A DNA stretch of 39,630 bases from a virus. Both the position numbers and the translations under genes were made by a program. This document shows, in pieces, positions 2,504 to 39,630 of the stretch (position 1 is its first letter; the number at the start of each line of letters is the position of its first letter). The notes below the pieces were generated by a model that saw nothing but the letters and a program-made list of their open reading frames with translations, searched no databases and was not told the origin of the DNA. Location of the stretch: positions 1 to 39,630 of the IMG/VR virus record IMGVR_UViG_3300017971_000486; one strand, 5' to 3'.

Positions 2504-2983
2504 ATGGCTAAGCCAGGCGGAAAGAGAAACAGCCAAAGAAAAGACGGTGGCAAGACAGAACATAGAACAGTTCACGCTGCTTGGCTTCAGGACATTCTTG
2601 GCGAGGCATTGCATCTGATTATGACCACGAGGGACACGAGAAAGCTCAGGAAGGTTCTCAATGACTCCTCGTGGAAGGTCAAGAAAGCAGTTATGGCTGA
2701 TGCCCTGGAGCAGGGCAACCTAACAAAAGCTAATGCCATTGCCACTTACATCCTCAACCTTACAGAGGTTAGGAAAGCGGCTGTTGAGAAAAATATTAAC
2801 GTAAACGAGAACGTTAGAGTTCTCATGGATGAGATAATTGATGCCGACTTCGAAATCCTCGAAAAAAGGGCCAGTCAGCTCAGGGAAGCTAAACGACTTA
2901 GAGCTGGAGCTGATAGAGCAGGAGATGATGCGTCAGGCACCGGAGAAGTACTTCTGGTGGAAGATGCTTCCGTACAAAAATAA
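2504..2983 (+). CDS. Putative terminase small subunit
   Basis: 159 residues from ATG 2504; an upstream in-frame start at 2480 would overlap the 56-aa gene and is less likely. The N-terminal ~20 residues are strongly basic (Lys, Arg, Gly), followed by several helices. This fits a DNA-binding small terminase, and the gene lies directly upstream of and overlaps the large terminase. No specific TerS motif was seen, so the call rests mainly on position and composition. Its 3' end overlaps the large terminase frame by up to 146 bases. Confidence 0.5.
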   Translation: MAKPGGKRNSQRKDGGKTEHRTVHAAWLQDILGEALHLIMTTRDTRKLRKVLNDSSWKVKKAVMADALEQGNLTKANAIATYILNLTEVRKAAVEKNINVNENVRVLMDEIIDADFEILEKRASQLREAKRLRAGADRAGDDASGTGEVLLVEDASVQK

Positions 2984-4463
2984 ACCTGAAAGATTTGCCG
3001 AGGAAATGCTCGGATTCATACCAACCGACCAGCAAAGGAGTTTTTTCAGGTCGATAGCCAACGGAACTCATGTTGCTGTAAAATCTGGTCATGGTACTGG
3101 GAAGACTGCAGCTGACGCTGTAACAATTATTTGGTGGATGCTAACCAGGGAGCATGCCAGGGTACCCTGCACGGCCCCGAGTGAGGCGCAGTTGAAGGAC
3201 GTTCTGTGGGCCGAGCTTTCAAAGTGGCACATGGAGCTGCATCCATTTTTTAGGGGTCTGTTTGTTGTAACCTCCGACAGATTTTATCACAAGGAGTACG
3301 ACAGAACCTGGTTTGCTGTAGCTAGAACAGCGAGAAAAGAGAAGCCTGAGGCCTTACAGGGTTTTCACTCTGGGAATCTTTTGTTCATGATCGACGAGGC
3401 CTCGGGTGTTGCTGAGGAGGTTTTCACGGTTGTTCGTGGAGCCCTAACCGAGGTTGGCAACCGCTGCGTGATGACATCGAACCCAACTAGAACGGTTGGG
3501 TTTTTTTATAACGCTTGCACACTTTGGGAGGATGACCCCTGGACAGTCCTCACCTTTAATGGGGAGGAGTCACCAAGGGTTAGCCCAGAGTTCGTCAGGC
3601 AGATAGCTATCGAGTTCGGTGAGGATTCTGACGTTTACCGGGTTCGGGTTCTTGGGGAGTTCCCTCTTCAGAGTGATTACACCTTAATACCAAAGCATTG
3701 GATAGAGGCCGCCCTCAAGAGGGAGGCTGATTACCCGAAGAAGCTTTCGAGAAACAAGTTCGATGCAGCCGGGGTAGACATTGCCAGGTACGGAGAGAAC
3801 AAGACGGTTTTTGTTTTGGTTAAAGGTATAAAGGTCGTCGGCATACTCTCCTACAGTAGGCAGAACACCATGAAAACAGCCGGGCAGATAGTGGGCCTGT
3901 GCAAGCGCATGAACCCCAACAACATTAAGATCGACGAAATTGGGGTTGGGGGCGGAGTTGTAGACAGGCTTTTAGAGCAAAACCTAGATGTGCATGGTGT
4001 TGACGTAAGTAGACCAGCCATAGAAAAAGATAAATTCGCAAACCTAAGAGCCGAGTATTACTGGAATTTAAGAACCAGATTTGAAGAGGGGAGTATATCC
4101 CTTAAGCCCATCGCAGTCCAGATGAGCAAGGCCGAGATCGTCAAGCTCATCGAGCAGCTCACTTCCATTCGCTATGAGTATGGTAGTAACGGAAAGGTGG
4201 CGATCTGGAGCAAGGAGAGAATGAGGCGTGAGGGGATAAAGTCTCCCGACGTAGCAGATGCAATGATGCTGGCTTTTGCTGAGTATTACCCGGAACTAAA
4301 ACCAAAGAGGCGAAAGACTTGGGGTGAAAAGTGGAGCGACAAACTCGAACAAACGATGCCTACAAATGTTCATGACACTTATGAGGACTATGCAAATGAC
4401 TTCTACAGGCGCTCACGTTACCCCATAACCGATGACGATCTTCTGGAGGACATGACATGGTAA
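2838..4463 (+). CDS. terL: Terminase large subunit (ATPase-nuclease)
   Basis: Packages phage DNA into the prohead. The N-terminal ATPase shows Walker A VAVKSGHGTGKT (residues 79-90) and Walker B LLFMIDEAS with D186/E187. The SNPTRT stretch near residue 216 fits the coupling motif of large terminases. The C-terminal RNase H-fold nuclease shows D314 (GVDIARYG), D366 (KIDEIGVGGG) and D471/D474 (SPDVADAM), the expected acidic set. At 541 residues it has a normal two-domain length. The start is uncertain: ATG 2838 gives a 146-base overlap with the upstream gene, while ATG 2925 would shorten it and follows AGGAG closely. The next gene overlaps the stop by 7 bases. Confidence 0.95.
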   Translation: MMPTSKSSKKGPVSSGKLNDLELELIEQEMMRQAPEKYFWWKMLPYKNKPERFAEEMLGFIPTDQQRSFFRSIANGTHVAVKSGHGTGKTAADAVTIIWWMLTREHARVPCTAPSEAQLKDVLWAELSKWHMELHPFFRGLFVVTSDRFYHKEYDRTWFAVARTARKEKPEALQGFHSGNLLFMIDEASGVAEEVFTVVRGALTEVGNRCVMTSNPTRTVGFFYNACTLWEDDPWTVLTFNGEESPRVSPEFVRQIAIEFGEDSDVYRVRVLGEFPLQSDYTLIPKHWIEAALKREADYPKKLSRNKFDAAGVDIARYGENKTVFVLVKGIKVVGILSYSRQNTMKTAGQIVGLCKRMNPNNIKIDEIGVGGGVVDRLLEQNLDVHGVDVSRPAIEKDKFANLRAEYYWNLRTRFEEGSISLKPIAVQMSKAEIVKLIEQLTSIRYEYGSNGKVAIWSKERMRREGIKSPDVADAMMLAFAEYYPELKPKRRKTWGEKWSDKLEQTMPTNVHDTYEDYANDFYRRSRYPITDDDLLEDMTW

Positions 4464-4758: not shown

Positions 4759-5268
4759 ATGATATTTAAAGAGATAGACATATTAGCCGGACTCAACGAA
4801 GACAACATTGAGGAAATCACAGACGTTGGTGAGGAAAGGCTGAGGGAAAAAGAGGAAAGCACAGACCAAGTGAACATCATATGTTTTCAGTGTAGGGATA
4901 GAGTGGGCTTTATAATTCCCGCAAGAACCGATCTTCCACTCAGGGGATACATGATCAACCCACACCCTGGTTGCGAGAATTGGCCGCTACCTCTAGATGA
5001 CGCTACCCCGCTGGAATTTGTTTGTCCTCATGCCCAAGAAGAAGGGCTGGATCAACACCTCTTCGTTCCATTAGTGGAGGGCAGGGCAGATCTAACAAAT
5101 TCATTCATGGATGAAAACCATGAATTTCATATAATCACTAAGGCTGCTGGTGAGTGCCCTTGTGGGTGCGGTGGAGTGGTGAGAGGAACCCGCAAATATG
5201 CAAAAGGTCTAGAATGTTACAGAAAACACCAGGCCAAGATGAGGGAAATAGAAGATGGAAACAATTAA
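4759..5268 (+). CDS. Zinc-binding hypothetical protein, 169 aa
   Basis: The protein has two clear cysteine clusters. C42-x2-C45 (ICFQC), with C72 and C89, could form one zinc site. The C-terminal CPCGCGG (C133, C135, C137) with C153 and H157 resembles small zinc motifs found in other phage proteins. The first ~35 residues are an acidic helix. The start is ATG 4759 after AGGGGG, and the 3' end overlaps the portal gene by 14 bases. A role in DNA or RNA binding, or as a portal partner, is possible but not shown. Confidence 0.75.
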   Translation: MIFKEIDILAGLNEDNIEEITDVGEERLREKEESTDQVNIICFQCRDRVGFIIPARTDLPLRGYMINPHPGCENWPLPLDDATPLEFVCPHAQEEGLDQHLFVPLVEGRADLTNSFMDENHEFHIITKAAGECPCGCGGVVRGTRKYAKGLECYRKHQAKMREIEDGNN

Positions 5269-7258
5269 GAAGGCCGTCAAGAAAGTGGGGGATGCTTTAT
5301 CGACAAAAAACAAGGAATCCCTCCAGTCAGACGAGAAACAGTTCGTGAAGTGCATAATCCCTCCAGATGGTCATGACAATGTGGGGCACTATGCCTTCTT
5401 CATATTGGGGGAAATTATAAAGGACAAGGACAAGAAGAAGCTCCCTCATAAATGGTTCCGCAACTACGAGCTTTTCAGGGCAAGACATTGGAGGAGTCAG
5501 GGATCGATAAAACTCTCAACTGTCAATTTAGTTTGGAACTATGTCACAAGAACTGTAAACCTTCTTACTGATAACAACCCAACTTTTGACATACACGCAG
5601 AGAATGATGACGTAGCTCAGACCATACATAAAGTGTCAAGGCACTGGTGGAACGAGACTGAGCAGCAAGATGTCTTGGCAGAAAGTATCACAACTGGCGA
5701 AATCAATGGCTGCGTTATTGAGAAAATAATTTTCAACCCCAGCCTCAATAACGGCTTTGGCGATGTCGAGGTAATATCGGTAGATCCGCACAATTTCGGG
5801 TTTTGGCCATTAAACGAGAAGCGTCCCAACAAGTGGGAGGCCGCCTTACACTATTACACGGTGCCAGTTAACCAGGCTCGGCGCAAGTGGCCACATATGG
5901 CTGAGTATATCACCGACGACAAGCTGTGGCGTGACAAGCTTGGTGAGCATAGGAGGGAGATCTTTGGTGGAACCACCAGGGGTATAGGTAAGGAATTTGG
6001 TGACTACGGTGTAGACCATGCCACTTTCACGGGGAACATACAGGCTGTTGCCAAGATGATGGGTGGCAAGGGAGAAGTGCTTATACTTGAGTTCTGGGTA
6101 AAAGACTTCACTACGATTGAGCGAGTGGTGGAACCTGCAAGGATGGTCTATGACGAAGAGAGTGATGAACTTATAAGCATACCGGAGAGGAAGGAGAGGG
6201 TGCCAAAGTACCCCGGTAATATCCGCTGTATCACATGTTGTAACGGTGGTGATATTGTGTTGAGCGATAGGCCCAACCCATCCATTAACCCAACAATTCC
6301 AGCGGAACTTGCTTCGTTGACGCACCTCTGGGATAAGTTCCCGTTCACTCTTACACAGTCAAATAAGGACATAGTTTCCCCTTGGGGGTTCAGCTCTATC
6401 GAGCAGCTAGAATCTATCAATTTCGAGATCGACAAGTGTCTTAGCCAGCTCAACCTGGCTAAGGACAAGGCAGTGAGGAGCCCGGTAATAAACCCGAAAG
6501 ACGCTCAGGTTCCGAATAGTCATTTTACCAACAACCCCGCAAAGGTGATTAATCCAAAGAATCACGTAGTTGCAAGCGCTATTCAACACATGAAGCCCCC
6601 CCCGGTACATCGTGACATAGAACACGTTATGTCGATCTATCGGGAGCTGTTCGACAAGATAAGTGGCCAGTTCGACATGACAGATCCCAACCTGGCCAAG
6701 GGCCGGATGGCGTACAAGACCGTGGCCACTATTATCGAGTCAATGCATACCATGCTGAGGGGAAAGATTCGAAGCTATGGAAAGATGATTAGAGACAGGG
6801 GCCGAATGTATCTGTCTCACGCAATGAATTGGTTCACAGAGGACAGAATGTTCTTTGTGGAGCGTGAGGGAGGGACAACTGAGTCCGGCTCCTTCGTGGG
6901 CAAGGATCTTATAATCCCGATGCACTTCTCAGTTGTGAGCGGTTCTACCATGCCGACCTCTCGCCTGCAGCAGCGTGAGGAGGCCCTTGAATTATTCAAG
7001 GCTGGCGCCGTAGACGTTAGAGAGCTTCTTGAGCGCCTTGACTGGCCGAACCGTGCCGAAGTCATACACCGTATGGAGCTTGGTCAGCTTGCTCCGATCA
7101 TGCAGAGGCTTGAGGCCCTCGGGGTAAATCCCGAAGTTATTGCAACTGTCCAGAAGATAGCCAACATGGATGAGTCTGAGTACAACGCAGTGGTTAACCA
7201 GATGAAAGAGGCACAGGCCGATAGTGCTGATCAGGGTAACCTAGCACCACCACAATAG
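5255..7258 (+). CDS. Portal protein
   Basis: 667 residues. The gene follows the large terminase and precedes scaffold and capsid genes, the expected place for a portal. The sequence matches large podovirus-type portals in style: a basic N-terminus, a long central wing and stem part, a helical segment with WGFSSIEQLESIN near residue 375, and an acidic Gln-rich helical C-terminus. The portal forms the dodecameric ring at one capsid vertex, binds terminase during packaging and later the tail. The start ATG 5255 overlaps the upstream gene by 14 bases. The family call rests on length, order and general pattern. Confidence 0.88.
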   Translation: METIKKAVKKVGDALSTKNKESLQSDEKQFVKCIIPPDGHDNVGHYAFFILGEIIKDKDKKKLPHKWFRNYELFRARHWRSQGSIKLSTVNLVWNYVTRTVNLLTDNNPTFDIHAENDDVAQTIHKVSRHWWNETEQQDVLAESITTGEINGCVIEKIIFNPSLNNGFGDVEVISVDPHNFGFWPLNEKRPNKWEAALHYYTVPVNQARRKWPHMAEYITDDKLWRDKLGEHRREIFGGTTRGIGKEFGDYGVDHATFTGNIQAVAKMMGGKGEVLILEFWVKDFTTIERVVEPARMVYDEESDELISIPERKERVPKYPGNIRCITCCNGGDIVLSDRPNPSINPTIPAELASLTHLWDKFPFTLTQSNKDIVSPWGFSSIEQLESINFEIDKCLSQLNLAKDKAVRSPVINPKDAQVPNSHFTNNPAKVINPKNHVVASAIQHMKPPPVHRDIEHVMSIYRELFDKISGQFDMTDPNLAKGRMAYKTVATIIESMHTMLRGKIRSYGKMIRDRGRMYLSHAMNWFTEDRMFFVEREGGTTESGSFVGKDLIIPMHFSVVSGSTMPTSRLQQREEALELFKAGAVDVRELLERLDWPNRAEVIHRMELGQLAPIMQRLEALGVNPEVIATVQKIANMDESEYNAVVNQMKEAQADSADQGNLAPPQ

Positions 7259-9355: not shown

Positions 9356-10306
9356 ATGGCTTTAACGAGAGGCGAACTTGAATCTATCACAAGATCGTAC
9401 TTTCTGACTGACGGCGGGAAGGCCTTCGATCAGTTTTTTGGATCTAACTACCTCCTGCGTAAAGGTGTCAAGAAGCCCATGAGGAAGCCCAGCGGTGGTC
9501 GTGAGATCAAGATACCCATCGGGTATGACCGCATGCTTGGTGGTTCCTTTTACGGGGCCGACCAGTTTGACACCAGTCATCAGACGATCTTTAACTCGGT
9601 AATCTTCAACTGGCGCAACCACTACATCAACGTGACCATCACGTGGGATGAAGAGTTGGAAAACAACGGCCCTGAGGAAGAGGTCGACATGGTCGTTGGC
9701 AAGTTGGAGAACGGACAGAAGTCTATGGAAGAGGACTTGGCTGACGGACTGTACTCTGACGGTACTGGCAATCAGAGCAAGGACCTAGACGGACTCCTGG
9801 CCCTGCTTAACACCACAACCTCAACCGCTTACGGCGGGATCGCTGAAGATGACATGTCTAAGTGGAAGGCTAACGCCAGCTCCACTTCCACCCCCATTAC
9901 CTCTGCGGTACTCCGAACTGGCCGCACCACGGTCAAGGTCGGTGACGGGATCAAGGACAAACCAGATATGATCGTCCTCAATGATACCCAGTGCGATGCG
10001 TGGTTGAATCAGCTTCAGGCTACCCAGCGTATGGAGAGCCCCCAGGCCGCTAAGGCTGGATTCTCCGGCGTTTATATGCTGGATCAGGCTGAAGTGTGGC
10101 CAGATGGCAAGTGCCCTAGCGGTGCTGGTTTCTGGCTGAATTCCCGCTTCTGGGGATTCGTGATCCACAAGGACGCTAATTTCGTAAGGACTCCGTGGAA
10201 GGTGCCGACCAATCAGGCCACCAAGTCCATGCAGTACTTATGGAAAGGCAATATGGTCTGCACCCGTAGGAACGCCCATTACTACATGAGTGCGCTGACC
10301 GGATAA
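9356..10306 (+). CDS. Major capsid protein
   Basis: 316 residues, placed after portal and scaffold, with a strong ribosome binding site (GAAGGAG). Size and pattern fit an HK97-fold shell protein. There is an N-terminal helix and extended arm, an E-loop-like stretch around residues 40-80, a central acidic segment (EDLADGLYSDGTGNQ), and a C-terminal part with PDMIVLNDTQCDAWLN that is typical of such proteins. Ala- and Gly-rich codon choices suggest high expression. There is no N-terminal delta domain; the separate scaffold gene takes that role. Confidence 0.85.
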   Translation: MALTRGELESITRSYFLTDGGKAFDQFFGSNYLLRKGVKKPMRKPSGGREIKIPIGYDRMLGGSFYGADQFDTSHQTIFNSVIFNWRNHYINVTITWDEELENNGPEEEVDMVVGKLENGQKSMEEDLADGLYSDGTGNQSKDLDGLLALLNTTTSTAYGGIAEDDMSKWKANASSTSTPITSAVLRTGRTTVKVGDGIKDKPDMIVLNDTQCDAWLNQLQATQRMESPQAAKAGFSGVYMLDQAEVWPDGKCPSGAGFWLNSRFWGFVIHKDANFVRTPWKVPTNQATKSMQYLWKGNMVCTRRNAHYYMSALTG

Positions 10307-11242: not shown

Positions 11243-11284
11243 TTGTATGAATACGTACAAAGGAGTTGTATGAATACGTACAAA
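11243..11284 (+). repeat. 19-bp direct repeat over a translation start
   Basis: TTGTATGAATACGTACAAA occurs at 11243-11261 and again at 11266-11284, 23 bases apart. The second copy contains the real glycosyltransferase start (ATG 11270) with AGGAG between the copies. The first copy opens an 8-codon minicistron (11247-11273, MNTYKGVV) whose TGA overlaps the real ATG as ATGA. Confidence 0.85.
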
Positions 11285-12001: not shown

Positions 12002-13046
12002 GTATATAGTGTTTGGAGACAGTTCCTTTACGTATGATGGTAGCACCCCTGAACTAGAACCACTTGGCGGTTCCCACAGTGCCTTGGTGTATTTAGCTAG
12101 ATCGTTGGCGCGGTTGGGTAACAAGGTCAGAGTGTATAATCGGTGTGAAAGGCCGGATACCTACGACGGAGTGGAGTACCTTCACTGGCATGATCTGATA
12201 GCTCATGGACACAATGAAAATCCTGATTTTTTCATTTCATTGAGAGATCCGAATATAGGTCAGTATTTCTGGAAAGGCGGTGGTGTGAAGATACTTCTCT
12301 GTCAGGACTATATTGACCAGCCCATAGTTCACAGTATCAACGGTGACACCAACCATATTGTATTTGTGAGTGGGTGGCAGATGGATGAATTCTGCCATTA
12401 CCTACACTGGCCAAGGTCACGTGGATGGGTTGCCCCAAATGGGATCGTGTCTGATTACTTCAATGTCGACGACCACTTCTTCAGAGATGGAAAGAAAATT
12501 GCTTATACCCCTACTCCATTTAGGGGACTGGAACATCTGCTGAAACTGTTTCCCAGGATAAGGGAAATGGTTCCCGAGGCAGAACTTCACCTGTATGGCG
12601 GCATGGCTACATACCAAGAGGATGGCCACAGGTTCGACAAACTCTATCGCACAACCATAGAAGGTGTGCATTATCACGGAGCCATAGGCCAGCGTAAACT
12701 TGCCGAGGAATTGGAGAAATGCCGGGTTTGGGCATACCCTAATGTTTGGCTAGAGACGTGCTGCACTGCAGCATATGAGGCCATGGCTGCTGGGTGTGTA
12801 GCTGTTGCATCAGACAGGGGAGGGCTGAGCGAAACTATTTCTTGGAGAGGTGAATTAATCCCAGGAATACCAGGAAATAAGGAACACGACGACCTTTTTG
12901 TTGAGAAGTGTGCTTACTATCTACAGGACGATGTTCAGTGGGGCCTAAAAGCAAGGCAATCATGGGCGTGGACGCTAAATAATCGTCCATGGTTTCCAAC
13001 CATGGCTCAACACTGGGAAAACCTATTTGACCTAATGGAAGGATAA
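11994..13046 (+). CDS. GT-B (family 4-like) glycosyltransferase
   Basis: 350 residues starting at ATG 11994 after AGGAGG; an earlier in-frame GTG at 11958 is inside the upstream gene and less likely. It starts with a donor/acceptor Rossmann part containing a Gly-rich LEPLGGSHSALVYLARSLA stretch. It ends with the family 4 nucleotide-sugar motif ETCCTAAYEAMAAG (E254 and E262, the EX7E pair) followed by VAVASDRGGLSE. This is a retaining GT-B enzyme pattern. Paired with the GT-A gene just upstream, it probably builds a short glycan in two steps. Confidence 0.85.
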   Translation: MSRYIVFGDSSFTYDGSTPELEPLGGSHSALVYLARSLARLGNKVRVYNRCERPDTYDGVEYLHWHDLIAHGHNENPDFFISLRDPNIGQYFWKGGGVKILLCQDYIDQPIVHSINGDTNHIVFVSGWQMDEFCHYLHWPRSRGWVAPNGIVSDYFNVDDHFFRDGKKIAYTPTPFRGLEHLLKLFPRIREMVPEAELHLYGGMATYQEDGHRFDKLYRTTIEGVHYHGAIGQRKLAEELEKCRVWAYPNVWLETCCTAAYEAMAAGCVAVASDRGGLSETISWRGELIPGIPGNKEHDDLFVEKCAYYLQDDVQWGLKARQSWAWTLNNRPWFPTMAQHWENLFDLMEG

Positions 13047-21982: not shown

Positions 21983-24900
21983 ATGGCCACTAAAAGTATA
22001 TGGGACACACTTGAACCCATAGATGTGGAAGAGGAAGACTACAAGAAAAGTCTGTGGGACGAGCTTGAACCAATAGACCTACCAGAAGAGATAGGCAGGA
22101 AACTGATACATACGCCACCACTGCCTTCACCACCAGCAACTCCCGAATCAGCCCCCCAAGCACCACCAAGGCCTCGCATGCCCCTATTTAGGCCAGAGGC
22201 AGAACCCGTAGCTCAAAAACTCGGTCTATCCCCCACCGAAAATGAATTCGGGTTAGCAGAGGCAGACACAGACGAAACGTTTGTCAAGAGATACACTGAT
22301 CTACTCTGGCAGGGTGCTAAGTCCGTACCCGCTGCGATGTTGGGAGGCCTAGAGCAGATAGCTCACATAGTTGGGAAGGGTGAGGTATTAGAGACTCCTG
22401 GTGTAGGCGGATCACTTGCGGAAATCGGCCCGGAGTTGGAGGAAGCCCTCCATGAAGGAGCTGAATGGGAAGGCTTTAAGCCTCCTGAGGGTTGGCAACC
22501 TCCCCAGAATATATTTGAAGGAGCAGTATTCAACCTACCTCAGATGGCAGGTCAGGTGGGTAGCTGGATAGTAGCTGGCCCGGCTGCGGCTGGAATGTAT
22601 ATGTTTAGCCAGATAGCTGGTCAGCAATACCATGACCTGGTTAACCAGGGAGTGGATAAAGACCTGGCTACTGCCATGAGTTTGGCCAATGCTGGGGTGC
22701 AGATGCCTCTTGAGCATATCGGTCTTGGTAAGCTCCTTAAGCCCTGGATGCCTACTCAGGGGATAGCGAAGGTTCTATCCCAGTGGGGTAAGAGAGCTGG
22801 GACTGAGGGACTAACAGAGTGGCTGCAGAAATTTCCTGAGGAGATAACATACCACATTGCGACACACCCAGGCGATGAGTCCAGCAAGATGCTGATGGAC
22901 ATAATTAAACAGGTTCCTGAGTGGGCCTGGGAAGGTGCAAGGTGGGATGCCCCAATAGGTGCTTTGCTTGGCGGCTTCTTTAGCGCCCCTGGCGCTATGT
23001 ACGCCGTAAAGAATGAAGTAAATCAGAAGAGGAAGGATCAGGTTATTACGGGACTGATAGACCAGATTGAGGAGGAAATTAAGAACAATCCCCAGCTTGC
23101 TCTTTCCCATCCTGAGGCATTCATGAAGCTAGAAAAAGACCTTGCACTACCACCTGGTCAAGGTTTTGTATTAGCTGCACAGTACAGTAACTGGTCACCG
23201 GAATTGGCTCAGAAACTAATTGACGAAAAAGAAAAACTCCCCCCACCCCCAGATAGAAAGCTTCTTCCTCCAGGAGAGGAGAGGAAGCAGTTACCCAGAG
23301 GCGAAAAAGAACCCGTTGATTTTAGTGTCTACTCACCCGAGGTGGCAGAATTTTTAAGATGGGTACACAAGCCCGGCAACTTCCCCATTGAAGAGCAGAG
23401 GACAGATCCCTCCAAACGCCAGCTGCTACCGGAACCAGAGTTGGGGCCCGAATTTGTAATGGAAGAAGCTGAAGGCCCCGAGGCTGCGGCAAGGGCTGTA
23501 GAGGCTGCCCTTGAAATGGGCAGCCGGGAGGCCATAGAACAGGCAACTCGTGAGTACGAGAAGGCGCAGGGGCGCTTCGATAGAACCGGAGCAGTAGTTA
23601 GAAACATCCTTAGAGAAAAACCCGGTGCAACCATAGGCGAAATATACAGGGAAGCGAGAAGCAGGGGTGCCGACATAAACAGGCAGGATCTTGCCAAGAT
23701 GGTTAACTCCATACGGGAGCCCTCCAAGGCGAAGGCCACAGCCACTCAAAAATTGGTAGGAAAAGACCCCAAGGGCATACGTTCGGAACTTGAAGGCACC
23801 ATAGAGAAGGACGGCTTCAATGAAATGCAGGATAAATACAACCCGGCCAAAGTTGGGGGCGTACTCTTCCAGGATCTAAAAACCCAAGGCCTAACAAACG
23901 GAGAGGCTAGGGCACAGGTTGAAGAGCAGATTGCTCAATACACTGAGCAATATAACTCAGTGGTTCAGGATGAGTTAACCAGGAGAGAGACTGAAAAGCT
24001 TAAAAAAGAAGAGGCCGAAAAAGAGGCCAAAAAGGTCACAAAAGAGGAAGGGGCTACCGAAGTACCAACCGAGAAAAAAGAGGTCACAGAAAAGAAGGAA
24101 AAGGAACAGAAGGGCAAGGAAAAACCCAAGAAGGAAACCAAGGGAAAAAAGAAGGGGGTTAAGACTCAGTACAGGGGACAGATTTTCCCGACTGGCACAA
24201 GAGTGCTCCTCGATGGTGATCCCGGTGTTGTAATCGAGCCCCCAGAGGATGCTTCTGAGATATATACGAAAAATGCGAGATACGTGCGCCTCGACGACGA
24301 TGGTGAAGCATACCCAGCTGGCCTCGACGAGCTTGAACTTGAAGGTGTGGAAGACCTACCCCCACCAAGAACCGAAGAGGAGATAGAGGAGAGCAAGCGT
24401 AGGGTTATCGATGAAGTCACAAAGGAACTAGCGGAGGAAAAAACTGAAGAGACTATCACAGAAGAGAAAAAACGTGAACCCGAAGTCGTAACCAAAAAGA
24501 AGGGTGAGAGAAAACCTAAAAAGAAAGAGAAGCCGAAAGTTAAGCCCGAAGACCGTGACATGATCCGCTCCAATATAATGGAGCTGAGGAATCACCCCTT
24601 CAGAGAGCAAGGGCTTAACTCCCCCCAGAGGATCTGGAAGGACTTTCACAAGAGACTTCACAAGTATCTTAAGGCCTGGGCTCCTGAGCACACCTACCTG
24701 GCCGACCACTTTGAGAGCTTTATGTACCAAGATAAGCGTGACATGGCCATCAATGTGGCAGAAGAGGGTATGAGTACCCTTCATGACGCTGCGGGAAAGA
24801 TGGGTCTTGAGATTGAGGCTGCTGAGATGGCCGAGAAGATAGCGCTTGAGCCCGTACTAGACGAGGGCTTTGTTCCATACGAAAACTCCATCCCCGAAGA

Positions 24901-27900
24901 TGACCGGATGTATCTGGTCAGATACCACCCCGTAGCAGGTAAGGCCACATTAGATCCAACCGAAGAAGAATACACCAACATCAAGGGCGAGGAAAAAAAG
25001 ACAAGAGTAGGTTCTGAAGCTCCTCACATGTACCACTATTACATGGAGGGCGGAGCCGAGGAACTCCAGGTTAAAGCCTTGCCCATTAAGTATAGATCTC
25101 TGGTACCGAAGAGCAAACTTTACGATGTAATCAAAGATCCGCTTGACCTGAAAAGCAAGGCCAAACCAAAAGGTATGGTCACAATAGATATAAACCTGGC
25201 CGAAAAAATGATGAAGGAGGCCGGGTACTGGGGCTACCACATACCAAAGAGCCGATGGCCCTCAACCGTAAGGATCTTCCAGAAACTTCCATCTCATGAG
25301 ATCGCAAAGCGTGAGCCCATAACCGTCAAGTCATACAAGGACGGAGTGGAGGGGTACGAGGATGTCAAGAGAAACATACTAATTTCAGACAAGAAGGAAA
25401 TCACCAAGGGAAGCGGTAAAGGTCGAACCCTCTTGGTTCAGATAAGCTCTAAGACCATGTCCGATTCTGTGTCTGACGAGTACTTTGACAAACTTTACTC
25501 ACAGAGAGAAGGATATTACAGACCCGAGGATTTTTGGGAAGTCCCCGTATGGATAGGGGAAGCCGCACACGTTTTTCCCAACTCTGATGCCTACGTTGTT
25601 CGTGGAGTAAGCGAAGCTGTAGATCTAATGAATTTTACTGAGTATGACACTGTCATGTTCAGTGCCATGGATACCAACAAGGAAATTATTAAGGATATAG
25701 CCGAGCGCTACGGAGGTAAGGTCGTTGTTGGTGGATACATAGATCCTACATTCTTTAAGGGCTTAAAGAATGTAAAGTTTTACGACTCCATGGATAAGGC
25801 AGCCAAGGGTGAGGGAGTGAAGTATTCCCGTGGCATCAACTACCACCACTTCAAGGGAACCAAGACTGTACCACGTCTATGCCTGTCAACCGGATGTCTT
25901 CACAAGTGCGCTTTTTGTGTAGTGAAGAAGAAAGTAATGGCACAGCCCACCAAGTTTATTGATCAACAACTTGAGGCAATTAAGGATCTAGACTTCGAGC
26001 TTGTGTACCTCGACGACAAGACCTTCGGACAGGCATCGAACTATAAGTACTTGTCAGAAGTAAACAAGAGAATCAAAAAGTTTAATCCGAAGTTCAAAGG
26101 CTTCGTCATACAAACCACGGCTCCACAGTTTATGAAACTTGACGATGGGTTCATCCAGGAGTCCGGGATAAGGTATGTCGAGCTTGGTGTGGAATCATAC
26201 AATGATGAGATCCTCAAAAGGGTCAAGAAGCCCCACAATACAAAGCTCTTGGACAGAGCTGTCAACAAAATAAGAAAGAACAACCTCCAATTCATACCTA
26301 ATATTCTCGTTGGCCTAGCCGGGAAGGACGCTAATGGCAAGATATGGTCTGAGACTCAGCAGAGTTACGCTAGAACTATGTCCTTCCTAAGAATAAACAG
26401 GAATATTATATCGCACATTAACGTTTACAACCTTGCCCTATATGAGGGAACAGAACTTGCAGCTCAACTGGAGGTTAAAAGCGAAATAGACCTGGACGAA
26501 AATCAGGTCACGAGATCCTACCACCTAGATCCTGAGATCCACGAACAATTCTATCATAATGTGATGGAATTTGCTTCTGAACGGCTAGACCTCGGGAAGA
26601 AACAGGTAAGGACAAAACAGGTCGGACGCAAGGTCGACACCAAGACAGACTCAAAATACTACGACATACTCAGACAAACGTTTCCGGAAGCCGAGATAGG
26701 ATCTTACAGCTTCGCCTCGGATTCATACTTTCTTACCTTGCCAAACGGAGCAAGGATAGAGGTGGTTATGGGATCTCTCCCGGAGGATACCAAGGTAGAG
26801 AATTTCAAAATTCATCACAATCTTGAGGGAATGAAGCAACCGGAGGTTGTGGGCCTTTGGAAGGTGTCTACGGATGCATCCATAACTGGTGAGGGGGTAA
26901 TATACCTGGCTCACCCATCAAAATTCTATGCCAACCATGAATCGTTCCATGCGGCAGTTTCAATGGTTCTTACCGTGCCGGAAATTAAATATTTACGAGA
27001 GAGGTTTAAGGGTGGGAAGCACCCCAATCCCGAAGAGAATGCAGCTGACGCTTACGCAGAATTCTCCGAGAAAATATCTGCTAATCCGATATTTAGAAAA
27101 ATCCAGCTGTGGGCCCGGAGACTTATGCAAGCCCTAGGCTTCAGCGATCACCCCAAGGTTTTTTACGACATAGCTTCCGGCAAAGTGTGGAAAAGACCCC
27201 TAGGGAAGCCTTCCGGAAAGGGTAGGGTTTATGATGCTATTGCCGGAATGGAGCGGCATTTACCCAAATACAAGAAGGGAACTGTACGGTATTACGATAA
27301 AGAAGCTGGGAAGTGGATAGAAGAGGACATAAAGAAAGCAACCGAAAAGGCCAAGAGAAAAGCCCTGGACGATGACTTTGAGAGAATAAGCATCACAGGG
27401 GCAATCCGCTTCGCAGAGGGGGTTAAGGGTGCCAACTGGACATCGCTCATGGCCCAAGAAATCAGAGAGGCTTACGGACTCAAAGCTATCCCGAAGGGGC
27501 TACTGAAAAGAGTAAGGAAAAAATCCCAGGAGATATTTAAACTGAGAACCGAGGAGACGCTTGAGGGTAGACTCCCAACCATGGAAGAGATTTTGTCAAT
27601 AGAGGAGCGTGGAGCAAAAGAGGGTGGCCTAGTTTGGTATGACGTGAGAGACGGCCTCAGTGCCCTAACCACCGATGACAGTGGAGAAGTAGTGGCCAAG
27701 TCAGCCAAGACGGAGTTGGAAGAATACTTCGGGGAAGATGCGGAAGATATGGCTCTTCTCATAGCCCACCTAAGTTCCTCAATGAACGTGGTTGACAACG
27801 TAAAGAAAGCTATCGACGTTTACGTTAGGCTGAAAACTGGCCAACCAATAACTGGCACACATGCCGTGCAAGACTGGAGTATCTATTCGGCCATAGAGTC

Positions 27901-30900
27901 TGGAATCACCACGGGTGATAAGAGAGTGCCATTCCTGGAGGCAATCCTCGGAAATGCAGATGCGGTGGTTATCGACAGGTGGATGGGTAGGGTATTCAAC
28001 TTTGCCAAATATGATCCCAAAACCAAAAAGCTGACACCTATAGACAACCCAACTACAAACCAAAGAAAGATGATCAGGCAGTGGATCGAAATGGGAGCCA
28101 AGAGGTATGGAGTATCGAATAGAGCATACCAGGCCCTACTCTGGGCCGGAAAGAAAGCCCTGGACGAGGAGGCCAAGGGCAGACCAACCGGAACCTTAGA
28201 TCCGCTGTACAAAGTAATTAACGATCATGTCAAAAAAGCCTCTATACCAGTCAAGGAGATCCCAAAGGGTGAGGCGGATAGGTATGCAATCCTCCCAGGT
28301 GATCCGTCCAGGGCAGTGGGCTCACCGCTACAAGCGATTGACCAGCAGACATTATTTGCCAGCGTAGCTGATCAACGCACACCCGAGATGACCATAGACG
28401 ATGTTTTTGGTGAAATGCCTACTAATTTCAGAAAGAAAGTGAAGGGCACCCTGGCCAAGGCTAGAAAATGGAGGAAGTACTTAGTAGATAAGTACGATCC
28501 GATTAAGGAGCGACTGGGTGAAAATGCTTATAAGATGTTTAGAATGCTCGCCGGATCTGACGCTTTGTTTCAGGCAGTGATGGAGAAGGGCAAAATCACC
28601 ATAGATGACAACGGCAGAGTTGGAATAGATAGAGCGACTGGTGGGGCAGGTGAATTTTTCAAGAAACACGGTGACGACGCCAGGAACATGCTCTATTGGG
28701 CCGCACTCAAACGTGCCGAGAGGTTAGGGAAGAGCTACAAGTATAAGAAAGTTAGGGAGTATTCTCGTAACTCTGTAGACCTGGCCCAGCGATACATAGA
28801 CAACCACCCCGACGAACATCTTAAGATGAGGGTCACAGATAACAAGATAATCATCGAGAGAGGTCGGCCACGTGAGCAGTGGTTAGTGGGTGAAAGACGT
28901 GCGGCAGTAGAAAAACATCTTCGGGAAACCGGGAAACCGGACGAATTCTACCAAGGACTTTATGATGAATTTGTCAAGTTTCATACGGGCATACTAGACC
29001 TTGCTGAGGCCATGGGGCTCATAAGCAAAAAGCAAAGAGATACCTGGCTTTCAGATATATACGTTCCGTTCCACCGAATCTTCCAAACGGCAGAGGGGGA
29101 TGAGGACTCCAAACACCCCTACTCAACTGATGTTATAGGATCTAAGCTCAAGGATCTTTATGGAGCAAAGATGAAGCTCGGTGATCCGATAGAAAACGTG
29201 GTAGCCAACTGGTCTTACTTAATTAAGGAGTCACTGCGGAATGCAGCTACAGCCAACGCTTTTGATGCTGCTAGGTCTATTCAAGCAGAGCAGGGTGGAG
29301 ATCCGATAGTGACAGATGCTGACAAGGCCGGATTTGACACCATATCTTACATGGATAAGGGTAACCGCAAGTTCGTAAGGCTTCATGATTTTGAGCTTTT
29401 CCAGACTATTAGAAATGTCAACCAAAATGCTGTACCACGGTGGATGAGATCCATATTCGGTAGACCGAAACGGTGGTTGACCTACGGTATCACCAGAAGC
29501 CCAGCGTTTGTTTTGGCTAACTCCACACGTGACACACTGGCAAGTTGGGTATTAACTAAAAACTTTATTCCAGTGATAGACTCGATCCGTGGTGCCTTTC
29601 ATATCATGACCAACTCAGATGAGTACGTTAATGCCATGGCAGCCGGGGCCCTCTTCGGTGGAAGTTACATGAGGGCAGAAGACCCACAGTCACTCCAGAA
29701 GATGGCCAGAAGAATGGTGCCCAAAAAGGGTAAGGGTGTAGTCCTAGATACACTCAAATCTGCCTGGGAGTTCTATGAGAAGTTCATTGACGCCTCAGAA
29801 AATGCTGCAAGGATGGGCATATTCCTAAAAAATATTAGATCAGGCCTTTCAGATTTTGATGCCGCATATGAAGCCAGAGACATTACAGACTTTTCTAACC
29901 ATGGTGCTTCGGTGCCGCTACAGTACCTTCTCGCAACAGTCCCATTCCTCGGCGCCAGGGCTCAGGGTAACTACAAGTTCTATCGTGGGCTTAAGGAAAA
30001 TCCACTCGGCTTTGCGGCTAAGGGCAGCCTCCTTGCCCTCGCATCGCTCGGGCTTTGGGCGCTATACGCCGACGATGATCGATATAAGGAGCTTGAGGAC
30101 TGGGATAAGTGGACATACTACCATTTCTGGGCAGGGGACAAGCACTACAAGATACCCAAACCATTCGAGGTTGGTGTTGTATTCTCGTCAGCAGTCGAAA
30201 CCGCAGCTAATCTGATCACCAACAAGGAGGAGAAGGAGTTTCTTAAGAGATTCATCTTCCACTCCATGAATCAGACTTTTGCTATCGACATGCCCCAACT
30301 GATAAAACCAGCCGTGGAGCAGTGGGCTAACAAGTCATTCTTCACAGGTAGGCCAATAGAAAGCTATAGGCTCCAGGGGTTGAAGAGAAGCGAGAGATAC
30401 TATTCTAACACCTCAGAGCTTATGAGGGTTCTCGGGAAACAGCTCAACCTATCTCCAACAAGAATGGAGGAGCTGGTTAATGGATACTTCGGTACCCTCG
30501 GTGCAGGACTGCTTACAATGGCAGATCAGGGAACCAGGTGGTTCGCAGACTTCCCGGAAAGGCCGAGGCCTAGAACCGACGACTATCCTCTCGTGGGCAG
30601 GTTCTGGAAAGAAGGCCCGGCCAAAAACAACAAGTACGCCACCCGCTTCTATGACATGGTTGAAGAGAGCGAAAAGCTGGTAAAGACAGTGAAACATTAC
30701 ATGGAGCTGGGCGACATGGCCGAGGCCAGGAGGCTGATGAAGGAAGATGTTACAGCCTACGCATATAACAAACATTTAACATCTATCCGGAGGCAACTCT
30801 CTGACATCAGAAAGGTTATGAGGCAGATCGAGAACAGTAGAAAATACACCTCGGACGAGAAAAGGGAGAAGTTGGATAGGTATTACAGACTAAGGAACAA

Positions 30901-30949
30901 GCTTGTGAAAAACGCTTATGACATATACACAAGGGCAAGAAAAGGATAG
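21983..30949 (+). CDS. Giant polyvalent virion-type protein with radical SAM and HExxH domains, 2988 aa
   Basis: A single uninterrupted frame making up over a fifth of the window. In order: twin short motifs IWDTLEPID (6-14) and LWDELEPID (~24-32); a hydrophobic, helix-rich part (~115-330) with a membrane-like stretch at ~189-212; a winged-helix-like stretch (~538-582); a Lys/Glu-rich linker (~669-860) interrupted by a small beta-barrel-like piece (~729-785); a radical SAM domain (~1190-1560) with CLHKCAFC (C1305, C1309, C1312); an HESFH metallopeptidase-like site (1652-1656); a helical domain with VVIDRWMGR (~1995); and a long C-terminal region (~2290-2988) like phage large-polyvalent-protein domain LPD38, with a second membrane-like stretch at ~2680-2696. 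Such proteins are packaged and injected with DNA. The order and combination are seen directly; injection is inferred. Confidence 0.85.
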   Translation: MATKSIWDTLEPIDVEEEDYKKSLWDELEPIDLPEEIGRKLIHTPPLPSPPATPESAPQAPPRPRMPLFRPEAEPVAQKLGLSPTENEFGLAEADTDETFVKRYTDLLWQGAKSVPAAMLGGLEQIAHIVGKGEVLETPGVGGSLAEIGPELEEALHEGAEWEGFKPPEGWQPPQNIFEGAVFNLPQMAGQVGSWIVAGPAAAGMYMFSQIAGQQYHDLVNQGVDKDLATAMSLANAGVQMPLEHIGLGKLLKPWMPTQGIAKVLSQWGKRAGTEGLTEWLQKFPEEITYHIATHPGDESSKMLMDIIKQVPEWAWEGARWDAPIGALLGGFFSAPGAMYAVKNEVNQKRKDQVITGLIDQIEEEIKNNPQLALSHPEAFMKLEKDLALPPGQGFVLAAQYSNWSPELAQKLIDEKEKLPPPPDRKLLPPGEERKQLPRGEKEPVDFSVYSPEVAEFLRWVHKPGNFPIEEQRTDPSKRQLLPEPELGPEFVMEEAEGPEAAARAVEAALEMGSREAIEQATREYEKAQGRFDRTGAVVRNILREKPGATIGEIYREARSRGADINRQDLAKMVNSIREPSKAKATATQKLVGKDPKGIRSELEGTIEKDGFNEMQDKYNPAKVGGVLFQDLKTQGLTNGEARAQVEEQIAQYTEQYNSVVQDELTRRETEKLKKEEAEKEAKKVTKEEGATEVPTEKKEVTEKKEKEQKGKEKPKKETKGKKKGVKTQYRGQIFPTGTRVLLDGDPGVVIEPPEDASEIYTKNARYVRLDDDGEAYPAGLDELELEGVEDLPPPRTEEEIEESKRRVIDEVTKELAEEKTEETITEEKKREPEVVTKKKGERKPKKKEKPKVKPEDRDMIRSNIMELRNHPFREQGLNSPQRIWKDFHKRLHKYLKAWAPEHTYLADHFESFMYQDKRDMAINVAEEGMSTLHDAAGKMGLEIEAAEMAEKIALEPVLDEGFVPYENSIPEDDRMYLVRYHPVAGKATLDPTEEEYTNIKGEEKKTRVGSEAPHMYHYYMEGGAEELQVKALPIKYRSLVPKSKLYDVIKDPLDLKSKAKPKGMVTIDINLAEKMMKEAGYWGYHIPKSRWPSTVRIFQKLPSHEIAKREPITVKSYKDGVEGYEDVKRNILISDKKEITKGSGKGRTLLVQISSKTMSDSVSDEYFDKLYSQREGYYRPEDFWEVPVWIGEAAHVFPNSDAYVVRGVSEAVDLMNFTEYDTVMFSAMDTNKEIIKDIAERYGGKVVVGGYIDPTFFKGLKNVKFYDSMDKAAKGEGVKYSRGINYHHFKGTKTVPRLCLSTGCLHKCAFCVVKKKVMAQPTKFIDQQLEAIKDLDFELVYLDDKTFGQASNYKYLSEVNKRIKKFNPKFKGFVIQTTAPQFMKLDDGFIQESGIRYVELGVESYNDEILKRVKKPHNTKLLDRAVNKIRKNNLQFIPNILVGLAGKDANGKIWSETQQSYARTMSFLRINRNIISHINVYNLALYEGTELAAQLEVKSEIDLDENQVTRSYHLDPEIHEQFYHNVMEFASERLDLGKKQVRTKQVGRKVDTKTDSKYYDILRQTFPEAEIGSYSFASDSYFLTLPNGARIEVVMGSLPEDTKVENFKIHHNLEGMKQPEVVGLWKVSTDASITGEGVIYLAHPSKFYANHESFHAAVSMVLTVPEIKYLRERFKGGKHPNPEENAADAYAEFSEKISANPIFRKIQLWARRLMQALGFSDHPKVFYDIASGKVWKRPLGKPSGKGRVYDAIAGMERHLPKYKKGTVRYYDKEAGKWIEEDIKKATEKAKRKALDDDFERISITGAIRFAEGVKGANWTSLMAQEIREAYGLKAIPKGLLKRVRKKSQEIFKLRTEETLEGRLPTMEEILSIEERGAKEGGLVWYDVRDGLSALTTDDSGEVVAKSAKTELEEYFGEDAEDMALLIAHLSSSMNVVDNVKKAIDVYVRLKTGQPITGTHAVQDWSIYSAIESGITTGDKRVPFLEAILGNADAVVIDRWMGRVFNFAKYDPKTKKLTPIDNPTTNQRKMIRQWIEMGAKRYGVSNRAYQALLWAGKKALDEEAKGRPTGTLDPLYKVINDHVKKASIPVKEIPKGEADRYAILPGDPSRAVGSPLQAIDQQTLFASVADQRTPEMTIDDVFGEMPTNFRKKVKGTLAKARKWRKYLVDKYDPIKERLGENAYKMFRMLAGSDALFQAVMEKGKITIDDNGRVGIDRATGGAGEFFKKHGDDARNMLYWAALKRAERLGKSYKYKKVREYSRNSVDLAQRYIDNHPDEHLKMRVTDNKIIIERGRPREQWLVGERRAAVEKHLRETGKPDEFYQGLYDEFVKFHTGILDLAEAMGLISKKQRDTWLSDIYVPFHRIFQTAEGDEDSKHPYSTDVIGSKLKDLYGAKMKLGDPIENVVANWSYLIKESLRNAATANAFDAARSIQAEQGGDPIVTDADKAGFDTISYMDKGNRKFVRLHDFELFQTIRNVNQNAVPRWMRSIFGRPKRWLTYGITRSPAFVLANSTRDTLASWVLTKNFIPVIDSIRGAFHIMTNSDEYVNAMAAGALFGGSYMRAEDPQSLQKMARRMVPKKGKGVVLDTLKSAWEFYEKFIDASENAARMGIFLKNIRSGLSDFDAAYEARDITDFSNHGASVPLQYLLATVPFLGARAQGNYKFYRGLKENPLGFAAKGSLLALASLGLWALYADDDRYKELEDWDKWTYYHFWAGDKHYKIPKPFEVGVVFSSAVETAANLITNKEEKEFLKRFIFHSMNQTFAIDMPQLIKPAVEQWANKSFFTGRPIESYRLQGLKRSERYYSNTSELMRVLGKQLNLSPTRMEELVNGYFGTLGAGLLTMADQGTRWFADFPERPRPRTDDYPLVGRFWKEGPAKNNKYATRFYDMVEESEKLVKTVKHYMELGDMAEARRLMKEDVTAYAYNKHLTSIRRQLSDIRKVMRQIENSRKYTSDEKREKLDRYYRLRNKLVKNAYDIYTRARKG

Positions 30950-35730: not shown

Positions 35731-36309
35731 TTACCTTGCCTCCATTGACCTCATTCCAGTCTCTGATAGCATCCAGAGATATACTGCTGCCTCTGCAGGG
35801 TCTTCCTCTTTGAGCCCCTCGAACCTCGCCATTCCCTTAGTGTTGAGGCTAGACTGGATCACCCTGCGGTTATACATGGGGTACCAACCGGGCCTCCGCC
35901 CCATTTTGTCCCACCGAGCTAACTGGACAAGCTCGGGCAACCAGGGGTGGTTGGCCAGGTATAGGCACTTACCCAGCCTCTTCATCTCTCCCTTGAGGTA
36001 GGCCCATACCCTCATGTGCTGCTCAATTAGCCAGATAGTCTTGGGGCTCACATAGTCTCTCAACCATTCGGCCCCTACGGTTTCATGCCCACTCCTCTTG
36101 TCTAGTGGGAGCCCAGCCTTCCCAACGTCGTGTAACATGGCAGCCAAGATGAGGTCTGTATCGTCTGTTTCCCTGAGTGCCTGGTGCATAACTTGGAGGG
36201 AATGAGTAAACACGTCTCCCTCTGGGTGGTGCTTGAGAGATTGGGGAACCCCCATGGTGCCCTCAAGGAAAATAAAAATTGGCTCCATGAATTCATCTGT
36301 AAAGATCAT
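35731..36309 (-). CDS. HD-domain phosphohydrolase, CCA-enzyme-like
   Basis: 192 residues with the HD metal set: H36 (HPEGDVFTHS), H60-D61 (AAMLHDVGKA), H75 (GHETVGAEW) and further helices. The stretch HHPEGDVFTH and the spacing to LHDVGK match the HD part of bacterial multifunctional CCA-adding enzymes, which has phosphodiesterase/phosphatase activity on RNA ends. Here it is a stand-alone gene, coupled by an ATGA overlap to the upstream nucleotidyltransferase. A role with that partner is likely. dNTP hydrolysis is an alternative. Confidence 0.75.
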   Translation of the reverse strand: MIFTDEFMEPIFIFLEGTMGVPQSLKHHPEGDVFTHSLQVMHQALRETDDTDLILAAMLHDVGKAGLPLDKRSGHETVGAEWLRDYVSPKTIWLIEQHMRVWAYLKGEMKRLGKCLYLANHPWLPELVQLARWDKMGRRPGWYPMYNRRVIQSSLNTKGMARFEGLKEEDPAEAAVYLWMLSETGMRSMEAR

Positions 36310-37277
36310 CTTGGTACCCCCGCTGTTGGATCTGCGTGAACTGTGTCATAAACCATCAATATGAAATCATCCCAGAATCCACGGTTCACCTTTGTGGGGA
36401 GATCAGATGCATCGGCCAGGTTCTCGATTTGTCCCATCAACATTTCGATAACGGAGATAACCTCCCTACAATCGCGCTCCCCCCTCTTTATTGACAGTAA
36501 GTGCTTCGCCTCTGGTCTGGGGAATGTCATCGTGCCATCCTCAAAAAACTCTCGAACCCGAAAGGCCACTCGCAAAGCATGGCTAATAGCCTTCCAATCA
36601 ACACCCTCGTTGCGCTCGGCCATCCTTGCCCTCTTACCGTATTGGCTGAGAAAGTCCTTGAGGATGCTGGAACAATAGGCAGTGGTTGCCGTCTCTTGCA
36701 GGATCTTTCCACATACCTGATATTGGCGAATGCCATTCGGGCCAGGCTGGACATGGCGGAGATGTTCGGACTCCGGGAGGAGGTGCCAAACATCCATCAT
36801 TCTGACCTGGGAGTTTGGCGGAGAATCAATGATACTGAGAACTTTTTTTGCAGCAGCTATTCGACTACCCTTGATCCCATACTTCGCCGCCTGGCGCCGG
36901 GCGTAGCCCACAAAGGCCTTGAGGTTCTTGGTGTAAAATCTCTCACGGTTCCTCACCAGCTCATCCCAGATCCAGTTCTTCTCGATAATCATAGTGTCCG
37001 GAGCGTGAAGCATATCGAAGGCGACAGTCTCACCCTTACAGGCAAGCTCGATGAAGTAATGGAGGCTGTAGATCTCCTCGTCTACATCAAGGCTAGTATT
37101 CTTTTCGTCGCTGCCTTTCTTAGTAGAAGTACTTATACTCTTACACCTCTTCCCGAGGATTAGATCGCTTTTCTCCGGCAGAAAGATCCCTTTGTAGTCA
37201 TGGTCTGAATTTTCAGTGGCTGTCCCATAGAGATGGCTACCAAAGTGCATTCTGACCACAATATCAATCGGCTTCAT
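36306..37277 (-). CDS. RlaP/YcgL-type nucleotidyltransferase
   Basis: ATG at 37277, after GGGGAG, gives 323 residues; the longer frame upstream overlaps another gene and is not used. The active site is clear: G13-S14 in FGSHLYG and S24-D25-x-D27 in NSDHDYKG, the GS...DxD pattern of the polymerase-beta superfamily. The layout and the following EEIYSLHYFI match RlaP (YcgL, PF10127), known from E. coli and phages and linked to RNA repair. It adds nucleotides to an RNA or related acceptor. The 3' end overlaps the HD gene (ATGA). Confidence 0.78.
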   Translation of the reverse strand: MKPIDIVVRMHFGSHLYGTATENSDHDYKGIFLPEKSDLILGKRCKSISTSTKKGSDEKNTSLDVDEEIYSLHYFIELACKGETVAFDMLHAPDTMIIEKNWIWDELVRNRERFYTKNLKAFVGYARRQAAKYGIKGSRIAAAKKVLSIIDSPPNSQVRMMDVWHLLPESEHLRHVQPGPNGIRQYQVCGKILQETATTAYCSSILKDFLSQYGKRARMAERNEGVDWKAISHALRVAFRVREFFEDGTMTFPRPEAKHLLSIKRGERDCREVISVIEMLMGQIENLADASDLPTKVNRGFWDDFILMVYDTVHADPTAGVPR

Positions 37278-37527
37278 AATCTTTCTCCCCTTCACACTCG
37301 TCAATTTCTGTGATACTGGCATCAAAAATAATGGGGTCTTCGTCCGGCCAGTCACGGTTGTAGAGTCGTATGTCGGAATAGACAGGCATGAATCCGATAG
37401 AGTTCCCAACGTAGTCTCCCGAGAGAGTGAAGGCCCCAAGGCCAATATCAACCTCGAAGCTTCCCTTCCATTTGAAGAACGAACGTGGCACGTAGTAGCG
37501 GTCAGGTAGTTTCTCTTCGGTTGACAT
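37264..37527 (-). CDS. Hypothetical acidic protein, 87 aa
   Basis: Starts at 37527 with AGGAGA upstream. The product is beta-rich in the middle (FEVDIGLGAFTLSGDYVGN) and ends in a strongly acidic tail. It overlaps the nucleotidyltransferase by 14 bases and the Tat-signal gene by 26, so it lies within one tight operon. It may regulate or bind the nucleotidyltransferase. No family was recognised. Confidence 0.6.
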   Translation of the reverse strand: MSTEEKLPDRYYVPRSFFKWKGSFEVDIGLGAFTLSGDYVGNSIGFMPVYSDIRLYNRDWPDEDPIIFDASITEIDECEGEKDYEAD

Positions 37528-39470: not shown

Positions 39471-39562
39471 GGGTGGGCGAGGAGGCCCGTGGTTGACACA
39501 TCTCGTGGAGTGCCGTCCTCACACGGCGGAAGGCGGGAGTTCGAATCTCCCCCCGCCCACCA
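39471..39562 (+). tRNA. tRNA-Val(CAC)-like gene with an over-long D region
   Basis: GGGTGGG (39471-39477) pairs fully with CCCGCCC (39552-39558), followed by A and encoded CCA (39560-39562). The T-arm is perfect: GGGAG, TTCGAAT, CTCCC (39535-39551). The anticodon arm is CCGTC/GGCGG with the 7-base loop CTCACAC, anticodon CAC (39520-39522), and a normal 5-base variable loop. The acceptor end (GGGTG...CACCCA-like with A73) fits valine. Between acceptor and anticodon stem there are 35 bases instead of about 19, and no standard D-arm. It may be a degenerate or variant tRNA. Confidence 0.6.
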
Positions 39563-39630
39563 GTGCAACGTCAGTGCAAGTCCGTTTTTGGTGCTGCAGA
39601 CTCGTAGAGGCTTACAACATCAACCTCACC

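Follow-up and report, generated by a model that had tools for sequence, protein, structure and literature searches.

A radical SAM enzyme of an unnamed family embedded in a giant polyvalent-type protein of a probable podovirus

A protein of 2988 residues, predicted from the window (the whole stretch of DNA analysed here, a virus record of 39,630 bases), harbors a full-length radical SAM enzyme at residues ~1148-1540 (window 25424-26602), which by conservation and structure modelling is complete and probably active. The reading that we favor, at roughly even odds (about 0.5), is that an active enzyme of the family marked by the motif DDKTFGQ has been spliced into an LPD38-type giant, and that it would be packaged, ejected, and modify a substrate in a manner that favors infection.

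Genes for a large terminase subunit, a P22-like portal and a major head protein are found upstream of the giant gene and on the same strand (Table 1), and for this reason the window is assigned by sequence to a tailed phage, probably of the short-tailed type. The preliminary description of this DNA had located the giant after the tail genes and before lysis. The head-type genes upstream bear out part of this placement, but the matches immediately 5' of the giant are tail-like at most weakly, and 3' of it there is a single weak Peptidase_M23 match (E=0.006), under the cut-off. In coliphage PTXU04 and Achromobacter phage CF418P1, the lysis genes do come after the homologous giant. Elsewhere in the window, two glycosyltransferase-like genes (11243-13046), the first of them a weak match only, are present between the head gene and the tail-type genes, and the non-structural region includes a gene for an RlaP-type RNA-repair nucleotidyltransferase (36306-37451, minus strand) that adjoins the gene of an HD-domain protein (35731-36309, minus strand). 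Close to the end of the window (~39500-39600), tRNA-like text is found (GAGTTCGAATC, CGCCCACCA), with no call by ARAGORN or Rfam.

Table 1. Features of the giant gene, of its radical SAM module and of the head-type genes (window positions).
Feature	Position	Strand	Basis
Large terminase subunit	2838..4463	+	phrog_2, 1.4e-48
P22-like portal	5255..7258	+	PF16510 2.7e-7; phrog_156 1.8e-20
Major head protein	9356..10306	+	phrog_9953, 5.6e-40
Giant polyvalent protein gene	21983..30949	+	single frame from ATG, 2988 aa; largest frame of the window
Lead segment, residues ~1113-1150, in embedded copies, absent from stand-alone ones	25319..25432	+	alignment, 12 giants
N-terminal Rossmann-like (B12-binding-type) half, without DxHxxG	25424..25792	+	model; alignment; Foldseek
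Radical SAM barrel	25874..26602	+	PF04055; model; Foldseek; 33-sequence alignment
CX3CX2C [4Fe-4S]/SAM motif, CLHKCAFC, C1305/C1309/C1312	25895..25918	+	33/33 aligned sequences
DDKTFGQ family motif, residues 1344-1350	26012..26032	+	DKTFGQ invariant in 33/33
ELGVE motif, residues 1400-1404	26180..26194	+	E-x-G-x-E invariant in 33/33
HESFH, residues 1652-1656, possible zincin metallopeptidase motif	26936..26950	+	HExxH motif only
DUF7178 domain, residues 1911-2054	27713..28144	+	Pfam 1.5e-8, above cut-off
C-terminal third conserved in podovirus giants, residues ~2140-2987	28400..30943	+	sequence identity
LPD38 domain, residues 2698-2871	30074..30595	+	Pfam 1.2e-40

The fold and motifs of the enzyme are established by profile, alignment and model. 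The Pfam profile PF04055 (Radical_SAM) matches residues 1301-1444 with E=5.9e-9 and 36.8 bits, for a cut-off of 29.5. The cysteines of CLHKCAFC, which stand where the preliminary description had put them, are the sole conserved cysteines in an alignment of 33 sequences sharing 21-57% identity with the window domain. The segments DDKTFG (1344-1349) and GVESYNDEILKRVKKP, singled out in the same description, are present and among the best-conserved ones of the family. Modelled by AlphaFold with the 33-row alignment, the domain reached a mean pLDDT of 93.4 and a pTM of 0.90. In this model strands and helices alternate in the N-terminal, Rossmann-like half, in which WExPxW, S1227, N1232 and GGY are conserved and where the VVVGGYIDP stretch reported earlier is found. 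Foldseek comparison with the PDB returned full-length matches to MtaB, AprD4, CysS, RimO, TsrM, MgmA and MiaB, with E values from 1.6e-15 to about 1e-11 and TM-scores by query length of about 0.5-0.65, and AprD4 also ranks first in a profile search of PDB sequences (1.4e-12). A chance motif is ruled out by profile, structure and conservation together. The claim that a virion-type giant contains a radical SAM enzyme domain thus stands, including on the two points that could have overturned it, as the barrel is matched and the cysteines are present in all 26 viral relatives. Its location was correct; its true extent is wider, ~1148-1540, with a short lead from ~1113. A near-perfect inverted repeat, ACATTCTTTAAGGGCTTAAAGAATGT, lies within the coding region of the domain (window 25749-25774), probably by chance.

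To which class the enzyme belongs was addressed with the HMM search that had been proposed, in which the domain passes the Pfam Radical_SAM cut-off but reaches that of no named NCBIfam family. The best match is to PhpK, with 44.3 bits for a cut-off of 600, and HpnJ (31.8 vs. 577.6), TIGR00089 (29.7 vs. 251) and the AprD4 family (13.5 vs. 500) also score low. Because no NCBIfam cut-off is approached, we assign the enzyme, on sequence and modelled structure, to an unnamed family inside the broad B12-type/methylthiotransferase-type group. The likeness of fold to that group suggested by the preliminary description is thereby upheld, but identity as a methylthiotransferase is ruled out. MtaB, MiaB and RimO have the same two-domain layout and barrel, but the window domain is devoid of the cysteines of their N-terminal, second cluster; moreover, Pfam searches of the giant found no UPF0004 domain and no TRAM match at E<=10, and the NCBIfam scores are far under the cut-offs. 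AprD4, a radical SAM 1,2-diol dehydratase (PDB 6fd2), similarly combines a Rossmann-like half with a radical SAM barrel and superimposes with a TM-score of 0.63-0.65 by query length, but its identity to the window domain is 16%.

The strongest competing interpretation, to which we give appreciable weight though less than even odds, is that of a class-1-type cobalamin-dependent radical SAM methylase whose Rossmann half would bind B12 without a histidine ligand. The motif DxHxxG is absent from every member of the 33-sequence alignment, as had been noticed for the window; this absence does not settle the matter of cobalamin, since class-1 cobalamin radical SAM enzymes are known that bind B12 without such a ligand (PMC13331322). 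A Rossmann domain precedes the barrel in PhpK, TsrM, CysS and OxsB, as it does in the model and its structural matches, and TsrM, CysS, MgmA, TokK and OxsB are all among these structural matches. The conserved S1227 and N1232 are in the loop that follows strand 3, where OxsB uses Asn186, PhpK is the best NCBIfam match, and a cobalamin adenosyltransferase gene adjoins the Rhizobium relative. On the other hand, AprD4 is an equally good structural match and is no methylase, and every NCBIfam B12 family is far under its cut-off.

When the window domain was used as the lone query, no close relatives were found in viral or genome contigs. It is matched (9e-10) by a radical SAM protein of a Mesorhizobium plasmid that shares with it two features outside the core, an early WExPxW and DKTFGQ. 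The two were combined as a joint query, which yielded 26 other viral contigs (28-57% identity) and 28 bacterial loci; a repeat scan of the viral contigs with the full alignment returned the same 26, and DKTFGQ is kept along with the three cysteines in all of them. Among 50,697 records of phage isolates, the domain gives just four weak matches, with E of at least 0.009, the best of them to a separate 569-residue radical SAM gene of an unverified human faecal contig that does not have the family motif. The bacterial relatives, from Rhizobium smilacinae (L033), Halovulum marinum (L034), Mesorhizobium (WP_258580589) and Streptomyces, align over the full length and contain DKTFGQ and WExPxW but, unlike the window domain, are separate genes in apparent metabolic loci, with 21-35% identity to it. 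That of Mesorhizobium adjoins agmatinase and phosphotransferase genes. The nearest one, of R. smilacinae, is followed by genes for a class II aldolase, an aldehyde dehydrogenase, a cobalamin adenosyltransferase and a PNP_UDP_1 protein (L033:7158-10800), which we take to resemble a 5'-deoxyadenosine salvage set. ATP-grasp and MatE genes are also found near bacterial relatives, and these neighborhoods are too variable to name a substrate.

Comparison of the viral relatives reveals the behavior of a cassette. Of the 26 viral contigs, 14 have the enzyme as part of a larger ORF of 1113-4989 residues, and the other 12 have it as a stand-alone gene of 370-420 residues or the cut end of one; with near-duplicates merged, there are 11 lineages of the embedded kind and about 11 of the stand-alone kind. 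Apart from the radical SAM module (about 1104-1150 to 1536-1572), the window giant has no long stretch in common with the other giants carrying the enzyme. The LPD38 third was not found to be common to them, in an LPD38 search that had no positive control among named genomes. These other giants share further segments with one another and with LPD38-type giants, and are thus mosaics; ART-PolyVal and LPD23 domains are present in one of them (L062) and a RadC-like domain in another (L061). In the lead segment that precedes embedded copies, the consensus is 'Y..A.....N..V......R.LLVQ', with N1131 and Q1153 invariant, and the upstream regions of the 12 giants are otherwise unrelated; the stand-alone proteins begin within a few residues of LLVQ. 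In a phylogenetic tree, the phage copies are united with their closest bacterial relatives, L033 and L034, in one group with 100/100 support, in which embedded and stand-alone copies are intermixed, requiring 4 changes on the best tree, and the well-supported branches remain compatible with a single origin of embedding. Among about 20 further viral contigs that encode LPD38-type giants, not one has CX3CX2C in the giant frame. Separate radical SAM genes, outside the giant, were seen elsewhere in two records of this kind (L012, L013).

The carrier has a polyvalent architecture: Radical_SAM, DUF7178 and LPD38 are the three Pfam domains above cut-off in the giant, and the combination of unrelated domains in one chain with the phage-specific LPD38 is that of phage-type polyvalent proteins. 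According to a 2017 survey (PMC5512222), LPD38 has been reported solely from such proteins, for which packaging and injection are predicted. The C-terminal third shares 31-39% identity with most viral giants and 24-33% with those of phage isolates. It is homologous to PTXU04 gp25 (29%, E=5e-63), a putative polyvalent protein of 2198 residues that knock-down proved to be essential (PMC11879866) and whose gene is placed after tail-type genes and ahead of those for the holin and endolysin. Purified virions of Burkholderia phage JC1 yielded 51 unique peptides of its gp69, an LPD38 protein of 4515 residues (PMC9144972). With the LPD38 group of the survey and these two proteins, the window giant shares its large size and multi-domain build, a place in the virion gene block and LPD38; unlike the LPD38 group, it bears a radical SAM enzyme. 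The HExxH motif is likewise found in most related giants, and the region of HESFH has no Pfam peptidase match. In five other records with radical SAM-bearing giants, the giant is encoded on the strand of the terminase and/or portal genes; it is downstream of them in the same orientation in four, and in the fifth (G011) only if that record is circularly permuted. By analogy with these relatives, which also support its importance, the window giant is likely to be packaged in the virion, and its ejection with the DNA is plausible. N4-like phages offer a precedent for the ejection of an enzyme of ~3,500 residues (PMC12633501).

An unlikely alternative is that the enzyme acts late, in the producing cell, with virion proteins, DNA or a metabolite as its target, and that its place in a virion protein is incidental or serves co-expression. 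The giant sits in the late structural gene order, the cytoplasm would supply the Fe-S cluster and the reductant without passage through the tail, and the stand-alone copies are ordinary phage genes. Because 12 phage contigs have such a separate gene, the job of the enzyme needs no delivery by the virion, as its separate copies in larger phages also indicate. Late expression, however, would need just a stand-alone gene, and the cassette recurs in polyvalent-type giants, a class for which the 2017 survey predicts injection (PMC5512222).

The favored reading is that of an enzyme spliced as a cassette into an LPD38-type polyvalent internal virion protein of a podovirus and delivered at entry; its later steps, namely ejection of the radical SAM domain, activity at entry and the choice of substrate, we infer. 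Late synthesis of the giant would be followed by its packaging and by ejection along with the DNA, after which the domain might work free or still tethered, with possible release by the HExxH peptidase region. In the new host, it would take up or rebuild a [4Fe-4S] cluster, host flavodoxin or ferredoxin would reduce that cluster, and cleavage of SAM would generate a 5'-deoxyadenosyl radical to modify a small-molecule, nucleotide or sugar-type substrate, favoring infection. To leave by way of the tail, a folded Fe-S enzyme would probably need to be unfolded and afterwards to have its cluster restored, a requirement that speaks against action very early on. The bacterial neighbor genes and the position of AprD4, an aminosugar enzyme, as best PDB profile match incline us weakly toward small molecules.

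That a nucleic acid is modified instead, either the phage DNA or a host tRNA as by MiaB and MtaB, for instance for anti-restriction or altered translation, also appears improbable. Anti-restriction domains are frequent in polyvalent proteins (PMC5512222). A model of MtaB is the top Foldseek match, with MiaB and RimO also high, but TRAM, UPF0004 and the second cluster are all absent. In three large-phage contigs, the stand-alone gene is immediately preceded by a gene for a Dam-like N6-adenine methylase (L079:1256-2059, L080:1367-2170, L081:9138-9935). This adjacency would agree with a DNA-linked role; it is confined to these three, two of which are near-identical. An RNA ligase gene is found near the stand-alone gene in another contig (L085). 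Finally, giant virion proteins may gather inactive segments, but that the domain is a degenerate structural passenger is very improbable, as the three cysteines, DKTFGQ and ExGxE are invariant in 33 sequences, as retained catalysis predicts.

The existence of polyvalent giants was already known; what is new here is a polyvalent protein with a new enzyme class, drawn from an unnamed radical SAM family. The 2017 survey, which covers 131 polyvalent-protein domains, nowhere uses the terms 'radical SAM', 'Fe-S' or 'iron' in its main text (PMC5512222), and our search of the full-text literature found no report of a fusion between a radical SAM enzyme and a polyvalent giant. In its most far-reaching form, which we put forward tentatively, the proposal is that the virion delivers a working radical SAM enzyme within an ejected polyvalent protein, that radical chemistry would be among the first acts of infection, and that the family is exchanged as a cassette between giants and free genes.

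Polyvalent giants are a known, little-tested class of proteins that are probably injected, and the essential gp25 of PTXU04 is without known activity. A radical SAM enzyme in such a giant adds redox chemistry that is oxygen-sensitive and requires a reductant to the possible cargo of the virion, and it raises the question of how an Fe-S enzyme survives ejection or is rebuilt thereafter. The family has a sharp DDKTFGQ signature, its small free-standing proteins lend themselves to expression, and its bacterial representatives lie in apparent metabolic loci, so that its reaction can be sought directly.
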